In this document: positions 19,506 to 21,354 of the stretch, piece by piece
Numbering within the stretch: position 1 is the stretch's first letter
Layout: the number at the start of each line of letters is the position of its first letter
Origin: Thermococcus sp.
GTDB lineage: Archaea; Methanobacteriota_B; Thermococci; Thermococcales; Thermococcaceae
Assembly (NCBI RefSeq): GCF_026988555.1
Contig: NZ_JALSLB010000030.1
Location: 1-59,847, forward strand
Direction of reading: 5' to 3'
DNA: 59,847 nt
The notes under the pieces: generated by a model
What the model was told of the DNA's origin: nothing
Seen by the model: the letters and a program-made list of their open reading frames with translations, nothing else
Database searches by the model: none
Position numbers and translations under genes: made by a program

Positions 19506-19548
19506 TAACTTGCACACCCACAAGTTACTCGCACCCCTGCAAGTTAAA
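19506..19548. repeat. 43-bp direct repeat, left copy flanking the ATPase gene
   Basis: Matches the right copy (20627-20669) at 41 of 43 positions (differences at repeat positions 11 and 25). Each copy holds two back-to-back palindromes: ACTTG-N8-CAAGT and ACTTGCA-N4-TGCAAGT. The left copy contains the stop codon of the ATPase gene (19544-19546). Confidence 0.9.
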
Positions 19549-20626
19549 GCTCCCTGAAGACCTTCGCCAACACGGGGTCGGGGATGTGGTAGCTTCCCTT
19601 CTTCTTTTCCACGTAGCCTGCTTTGACGAGGTTCTCAAGCAAAGCTGAAAAGTTCGAGTCGTTTACGGGGCCGAGCTTTAAGGAAAGGTAGTCTCTAATG
19701 TCCTTCCAGCGGGAATAGTTCAACGCTATCGCCTTCAGTATGAAGCGGTAGCGGGGACTGTAGTTGAAGAGCTTCGACAGCTCGTTTCCGGCTATGGCTT
19801 TAGCCTCCCTGAGAACTTCCTCAATAGCTTTATGATGTCTGAGTTTCCTCGTAACGCGGATGTACCCGTAGAGGGAGAGCCAGCCGGGGATACCGTCGAG
19901 CTCTTCAACGGCCCCTTCGATTTCCCGTTCCATAACTTTAAACTCTGTCTCTTCGAAGCCCGTTCTCAGGAATTCTCTGCTCAGCTTCGGATTAAAACGC
20001 TCAAGGGATATGTCGTGGTGGTATCTGCCGAAGAGCGGCGCTTCAGGATCGTTAAACTTCAAGAAGTCGAAGAGAAGACCCACCTCTGAGCCGGTGAGAA
20101 TGAATGTCAGGTTTTTGAGGTTGTCAATGGCGTAAGCCAAAATCCCGTCGTACCTCGTGGCCCCCCCAAAGCGCAGGTACTGAGCCTCGTCGAAGGCAAT
20201 AATTACTCTTCCGGCTTTTCCGCCGTATTCATTGAGCGCCTCCAAGAGCTCCGTTATCGAGAAGTCCTTTGAGGTTATCTCCAGTCTGAGCCCGGAAACG
20301 CTTACCCCCCTGACCCTCTCAAGGAAGAGCTTTGCCTCCTCGACCAGCTTTTTCCTTCCGCTCATTCCTGAGAGGAGCATTTTCCCGATTACGTACCTGT
20401 TGACGGATGAGAACTCGGAGTAGGTTTTTCTCACGTCGACTTTTATTGAAGGGTAGGTGAGCTCGTTGAGTGCAACGTTGAGGAGTGAGCTCTTTCCGAG
20501 CCTCCTGAGGCCGAGAAGGAGGATTAGCCTTTCTCCTCTCCCCACTGCCTCCTTAAGCTCCCTGAGTTCCCTTTCCCTATCAAAGAGTTCTTCCCTCTTC
20601 GTCTTTGGGTACGGTGAAAACAGCAT
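19544..20626 (-). CDS. Archaeal AAA ATPase (PF01637-like) between direct repeats
   Basis: 360 residues. Walker A GLRRLGKS (39-46), Walker B VIIAFDEAQ (Asp146, Glu147), and FILTGSEVG as sensor; the C-terminal 80 residues look like a winged helix (WKDIRDYLSLKLGPVNDSNFSALLENLVKAGYVEKK). This is the large STAND-like archaeal ATPase family, common and variable in Thermococcales; function unknown. The start codon abuts one 43-bp repeat and the stop lies in the other, so the gene exactly fills the unit. The palindromes overlap the expected transcription start, so self-repression is plausible. ATG at 20626 is used. Confidence 0.88.
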   Translation of the reverse strand: MLFSPYPKTKREELFDRERELRELKEAVGRGERLILLLGLRRLGKSSLLNVALNELTYPSIKVDVRKTYSEFSSVNRYVIGKMLLSGMSGRKKLVEEAKLFLERVRGVSVSGLRLEITSKDFSITELLEALNEYGGKAGRVIIAFDEAQYLRFGGATRYDGILAYAIDNLKNLTFILTGSEVGLLFDFLKFNDPEAPLFGRYHHDISLERFNPKLSREFLRTGFEETEFKVMEREIEGAVEELDGIPGWLSLYGYIRVTRKLRHHKAIEEVLREAKAIAGNELSKLFNYSPRYRFILKAIALNYSRWKDIRDYLSLKLGPVNDSNFSALLENLVKAGYVEKKKGSYHIPDPVLAKVFREL

Positions 20627-20669
20627 TAACTTGCACCCCCACAAGTTACTTGCACCCCTGCAAGTTAAA
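20627..20669. repeat. 43-bp direct repeat, right copy, overlapping the ATPase promoter
   Basis: Second copy of the double-palindrome repeat, ending where the ATPase reading frame begins. On the minus strand CCTTTTAACTTGC at its outer edge can serve as TATA box, placing transcription start inside the repeat. Confidence 0.88.
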
Positions 20670-21354
20670 AGGCTTTCCCCGAAACTTTTCTAGCGAAAAG
20701 TTTCATCAAAGTTTGTGATTCCTTTATGAGTGCTCTTTTGAAGTGTTTGCGTTTCTGAAATTCCTTTTGGAGCTTTAGAATTCTCTAATTGGGGAACGTT
20801 TGTTTTTGGGTTTACGTTTTTTTCGCGCTCCGGAGAAGCGCTTTTCGGGGGATAACCCTGTTTTGTGGGCTTTTAGAAGTAAATTTCAACAGGGGAGAGG
20901 GTCTTTTACTGTGCAAACGCTCTCAAACAAAATCGCACTTAGGAAAAGAATCACGAGTCTTGGTCAAACTCAACGGGACTATCATCCCGTGCGTTGAAGC
21001 TCCACTTCAACGTCGCAAAGGCGAACAAGCTTTTAGAAAAAGCTTGATCAAAAGAGCTCCTTTCTTCTAAATTGACAGGGAATAAAAGTGTGCACTACTA
21101 AAGCAGCACCTTTAAACTAGGGTTTAATCCCTAAAACGAGTCATTGAAGAGGTTTCACATCTTTTTTGGCGTCTTTTGGACGCCTTGTAGGGGTGAAACA
21201 CTGAAAAACTGCCAACTTAAGAGTAAACACTTGAAAAACAAGCAATTTTAGAATTGCACGTGATTTTTCCGCCAGCGCTTTGCGAAGCAAAGGGCTGATT
21301 GCAAAAAATTTGTACACCTTCAAACCCAAAAAAGGGTGGAAGGGTTCGAAAGCC
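20670..21354. other. AT-rich non-coding region with an array of stem-loops
   Basis: No credible gene in about 700 bases; all open frames are short, lack ribosome binding sites and use AT-rich codons. Inverted repeats seen: 20681-20704 (10-bp arms), 20825-20841, 20974-20989, 20992-21012 (8-bp arms, loop 5), 21026-21046 (9-bp arms, loop 3), 21118-21132, 21152-21199 (7-bp outer plus 6-bp inner helix), 21242-21257, and 21273-21297 (4 + 6 bp around a G-G mismatch). It separates the ATPase unit from the ribosomal superoperon. Confidence 0.7.

Follow-up and report, generated by a model that had tools for sequence, protein, structure and literature searches.

Why should one gene lie exactly between two copies of the same 43-bp repeat? 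The question is raised by a contig of Thermococcus sp. (NZ_JALSLB010000030.1, positions 1 to 59,847; the whole stretch of 59,847 nucleotides is the window hereafter). A sequence-only reading had described there an ATPase gene framed by direct repeats, with the stop codon inside one copy, the start codon abutting the other, a TATA element at the outer edge of the start-side copy and two palindromes per copy, and all of this, coordinates included, was confirmed (Table 1). The copies match at 41 of 43 positions, with 92% identity over a 48-nt extension, and lie at a distance of 1121 bp. Each comprises two overlapping 22-bp palindromes offset by 19 bp, with the consensus TAACTTGCANNNNTGCAAGTTA, and the TATA-like sequence CCTTTTAAC overlaps the right copy at its outer end. 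The 43-mer has only two BLAST matches in the whole genome, both at this locus (E 1.8e-25 and 1.2e-13), and the palindrome pattern occurs five times in the window against 0.1 expected, every time within the two copies. The automatic ORF call begins at TTG 20644; the downstream ATG is preferred because of its conservation in relatives and the position of the operator.

Table 1. Repeat copies, palindromes, promoter element and gene in the window
Feature	Position	Strand	Remarks
Left (3') copy	19506-19548		contains TAA stop 19546-19544; 41/43 to 5' copy; apparent variable recombination boundary
Right (5') copy	20627-20669	-	adjoins ATG; promoter-proximal tandem palindrome, putative self-operator
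Palindrome next to start codon, within 5' copy	20627-20648		palindrome analysis
Palindrome on TATA side, within 5' copy	20646-20667		palindrome analysis
TATA/BRE-like element GGGGAAAGCCTTTTAACT	20663-20680	-	read from sequence
PF01637 ATPase gene, 360 aa	19544-20626	-	ATG 20626-20624; profile and structure matches

A hairpin, GAAACTTTT-CTAGC-GAAAAGTTTC, is found at 20681-20704, 12 bp beyond the 5' copy. Relatives carry hairpins of altered sequence, AACCTTTGC..GCAAAGGTT, at about the same position, and such a difference in sequence at a similar place suggests a conserved structure there.

The gene product is a PF01637 ATPase of the 2QEN/2FNA type, with a STAND/Orc-like AAA+ domain and a C-terminal winged helix. 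Its match to ATPase_2 (PF01637) has an E value of 1.1e-20 and 74.9 bits, the curated cut-off being 33.2, and the winged helix matches the MCM_C winged helix profile (2.6e-8). By profile comparison the protein is related to PABY2304 (2QEN; E 2e-139) and SSO1545 (2FNA; E 8e-93), with which it has fold and family in common. The AlphaFold model (pLDDT 92.8, pTM 0.89) retrieves 2qen (TM 0.89) and 2fna (TM 0.88) with Foldseek, followed by Orc1/Cdc6 and CED-4; TnsC is also among the matches. Among the PADLOC models there is a weak match to the candidate defence system PDC-S27 (2.4e-9). Orthologues with at least 67% identity are present in 25 of 94 Thermococcaceae genomes, and each genome holds about 10 to 49 PF01637 matches.

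The repeat at the start codon is not peculiar to the window. Among genomes taken one per species, 110 short-class PF01637 genes of Thermococcaceae were examined; each has a tandem palindrome next to its start codon, and in 104 the upstream palindrome scores at least 7, compared with 7.8% of shuffles. The layout is common to the family and the arm sequence is not, also in genes without a 3' copy: about nine arm sequences are found among the short-class elements, one protein subfamily for each, and other arm classes present a similar aaacccttataac-type TATA/BRE-like element in much the same position. At the ligase/L3 hot spot, which lies between the RNA ligase gene and the L3 operon, the 5' copies of the 14 Thermococcus orthologues all keep 39 to 42 of 42 consensus positions. 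Every orthologue read with an intact frame has the double palindrome at its start codon, including those of other genera and at other loci, which retain the 5' copy without the 3' copy; in two of three broken-frame orthologues (G059, G011) the element is shortened. In a wider PF01637 set, 58 of 100 genes have an upstream palindrome, against 6.5% of shuffles and 18 of 262 control genes, and palindromes stand at the start codon in 31 of 62 members of the ~460-aa class. Outside Thermococcaceae, 30 relatives were sampled (29 from the Staphylothermus order and one from a Methanoculleus bin, 29 being scorable upstream). Of the 29 scorable genes, mostly from that order (Thermoproteota), 14 score at least 7, against 5.7% of shuffles, and the frame of two repeats with a G run recurs in nearly all of them. 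Bins of Staphylothermus, Thermotogales and Methanoculleus (L310, L328, L331) also contain members of the family, each with a double palindrome of its own; the latter two are near-identical, so that one bin may have been mis-sorted.

These comparisons support the assignment, already made in the sequence-only reading, of the start-side repeat as a promoter-operator region: the palindromes span the interval from TATA to ATG, which is the position of a repressor site, and the layout is family-wide. The ATPase itself is predicted to be the probable ligand of its 5' element, and autorepression through the C-terminal winged helix appears likely. Covariation between recognition helix and operator was considered as proof of self-binding and rejected. 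The classes are distinct by eye, yet operator distance tracks the general distance between the proteins (r 0.62), and with this allowed for no contribution of the helix is left (partial r -0.05).

The two copies are not of one kind: the 5' copy is universal and of operator type, the 3' copy is optional and decays. Only 40 of the 110 short-class genes have a 3' copy, distributed over four arm classes: ACTTGCA (10/21), ACTTACCCC (15/21), CACCAGT (10/13) and ACTTACGG (5/18). None was detected in the remaining short classes or among the Thermoproteota genes read; a GGACAT-type class at three other Thermococci loci has a 3' copy apparent by eye and is probably a fifth. The initial null for these copies was inflated by same-class pairs and was replaced by a cross-class null, which gives 4% at threshold, due to related classes. 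In the window's class the 3' copies range from perfect to halved, decayed or absent, whereas the 5' copies are nearly invariant. The 3' copy looks like a variable recombination boundary.

If the gene could be lost between its repeats, as had been suggested, one would expect sites at which one repeat remains and the gene is missing. They exist at two loci, in each case at the same place as the occupied site and with matching flanks. At the ligase/L3 hot spot several genomes hold a single copy and no gene; both flanks of the empty site match the window in G014, the empty site of G071 matches G037, and G068 and G001 have the gene-downstream flank in common with G032. At the helicase/peptidase locus, between convergent genes, 12 genomes hold one copy without the ATPase and six hold the gene between two copies, with nearly base-for-base agreement of the empty G013 with G040/G017 and of G045/G034 with G023. 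The genome of the window has an empty CACCAGT-class site of its own at this locus (L294, G000:C42:11043-11075). In further genomes the repeat is decayed or missing there, and occupied and empty genomes do not always agree in the right flank (G023, G034, G061). The solitary helicase/peptidase copies keep the ATPase TATA with no gene starting there and therefore look like loss scars, and their position between convergent genes suits loss. Their use as operators of neighbouring genes was rejected, since both neighbours end at the repeat; a solitary ACTTACGG-class copy located ~40 bp before another gene may serve as the operator of that gene. The repeats were thus found at ATPase genes or at apparent former ATPase sites, in line with the tie between the two that had been proposed. 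The ATPase loss in G039 resembles an internal deletion and not a repeat-mediated event, and single-gene trees of the site states call for several changes of state in which gain and loss are not separable.

Elements of the ACTTACCCC type that are probably solitary copies, and perhaps mark further empty sites, were also noted away from the listed orthologues (G015:C1:841825, G023:C1:1990542, G016:C56:4633). The ligase/L3 hot spot has other entrants (L044, L051, L067, L074, L075, L080): a ~460-aa PF01637-like ATPase, a nucleotidyltransferase-like gene and c10. The c10 product is variable apart from a conserved C-terminus, and in some genomes the stop codon of c10 falls within the repeat.

Occupied sites also bear signs of exchange. 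The identity of the ATPase is above that of both neighbour genes in 8 of 55 pairs and below both in 45; for G021 and G031 it reaches 91.8%, against 79.0 and 79.5 for the neighbours, and for G023 and G025 the ATPase tree is at odds with the neighbour-gene tree. These comparisons point to a probable exchange of the gene among species. Between the window and G037 a block of 91.5% identity begins within the 3' repeat and ends 43 bp beyond the 5' repeat. For two further pairs the homology on the downstream side begins at the 3' repeat or about 10 bp before it, and in other cassette pairs the homologous blocks extend further. Such boundaries, located at the repeats or close to them on one or both sides, would fit recombination there as the means by which cassettes pass from one species to another. 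At L278 (G025:C1:1268200-1275200) the order is radical SAM gene, operator, c3 gene, ATPase, operator, second c3 gene. This tandem duplication might stem from integration at a solitary operator.

Taking these results together, we propose, with a probability of roughly two thirds, a gene cassette that controls itself through its 5' operator and is lost or exchanged by recombination between its copies. In the model, the ATPase would bind through its winged helix, presumably in the form of two dimers or a higher oligomer, to the double palindrome that covers the region from TATA box to start codon, and would close its own promoter. As the frame is common and the arm sequence particular to each subfamily, each ATPase would regulate itself only. 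Where, as in some Thermococcaceae subfamilies, the gene's own operator is repeated at the stop codon, homologous recombination of the two copies would delete the gene and leave one operator with its TATA box, and the reverse event, or exchange through the shared repeats and flanks, would place a cassette from another species at the same site. Private operators, 3' copies, empty sites and species-discordant cassettes are seen in the sequences themselves; binding and autorepression, like the route of recombination and its direction, are inferred. The description as a cassette with built-in self-control is largely upheld, in the sense of recurrent loss and exchange by recombination, with the 5' copy alone as its universal part.

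Both copies might instead be functional operators, bridged by an oligomer that loops the gene or, at the stop codon, blocks convergent read-through, the empty sites then being incidental. AAA+/STAND proteins form oligomers, and 3' copies are kept by most ACTTACCCC- and CACCAGT-class genes, often between convergent genes; with 3' copies that vary from intact to absent beside almost unchanged 5' copies at the hot spot, and none at all in several classes and in Thermoproteota, we regard this as unlikely. A more active role for the protein, in which archaeal PF01637 ATPases would be self-addressed units, each recognising its own private double palindrome alone, which would be an off switch and, if it stands at both ends, also a docking and excision site, with the ATPase actively taking part in recombination, seems to us quite improbable. 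The unit might also be a mobile element that is active, its ATPase aiding excision or insertion at the repeats as does the ATPase partner of a transposase. This reading could draw on the self-framed cassettes of several lineages, the empty sites, the likely transfer between species and the TnsC match. Yet the ATPase is the sole gene between the repeats and the unit has no nuclease, integrase or transposase; no relatives were found in plasmid, phage and viral collections, where the 90 viral-contig matches to the short palindrome are probably due to chance; and homologous recombination is enough. We judge such an element very improbable, and of the movable or losable unit previously suggested, loss and exchange are borne out by empty sites and discordant cassettes, whereas autonomous mobility is not. 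That the repeats are replication-origin-like boxes, as beside archaeal orc1/cdc6 genes, would agree with Orc1/Cdc6 as the next nearest fold after the family itself and with the G runs within the repeats; it is hard to reconcile with a family of so many members in each genome, whose start codons and promoters carry private sequences, and can be given hardly any weight.

To our knowledge, no operator, regulation or cassette arrangement has been reported for the PF01637 family, and none was found in the open-access literature. The ATPase domain of mycobacterial IniR has been likened to SSO1545 (PMC5760070). The STAND regulators IniR and MalT resemble the window ATPase in combining an ATPase domain with a DNA-binding end; they differ in having a sensor domain and in controlling other operons, the site of the window ATPase being the start of its own gene. 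Orc1/Cdc6 proteins share with it the AAA+ domain, the winged helix and a structural match. Their binding sites lie near their own gene; PF01637 differs in that a genome holds many paralogues and the promoter of each carries a private sequence. Restriction-modification controller proteins belong to small mobile units and bind tandem palindromic operators at their own promoter. They are of another protein family, and, unlike in the window cassette, their operator is usually not repeated behind the gene.

The wider finding is a whole ATPase family with private operators, probably self-bound, some of them copied behind the gene. Where such a 3' copy is present, it would make the ATPase gene easy to lose and to swap. 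For PF01637, whose structures were solved long ago, the operators at the start codon would provide the first directly testable clue to the role of the family. Hyperthermophile genetics may gain from them a large number of DNA-protein pairs, possibly orthogonal, and they may serve as a model of a gene family that diversifies its own switch. The repeat-framed versions would show that a single gene can enter and leave fixed sites in the chromosome by minimal means, with no recombinase of its own.
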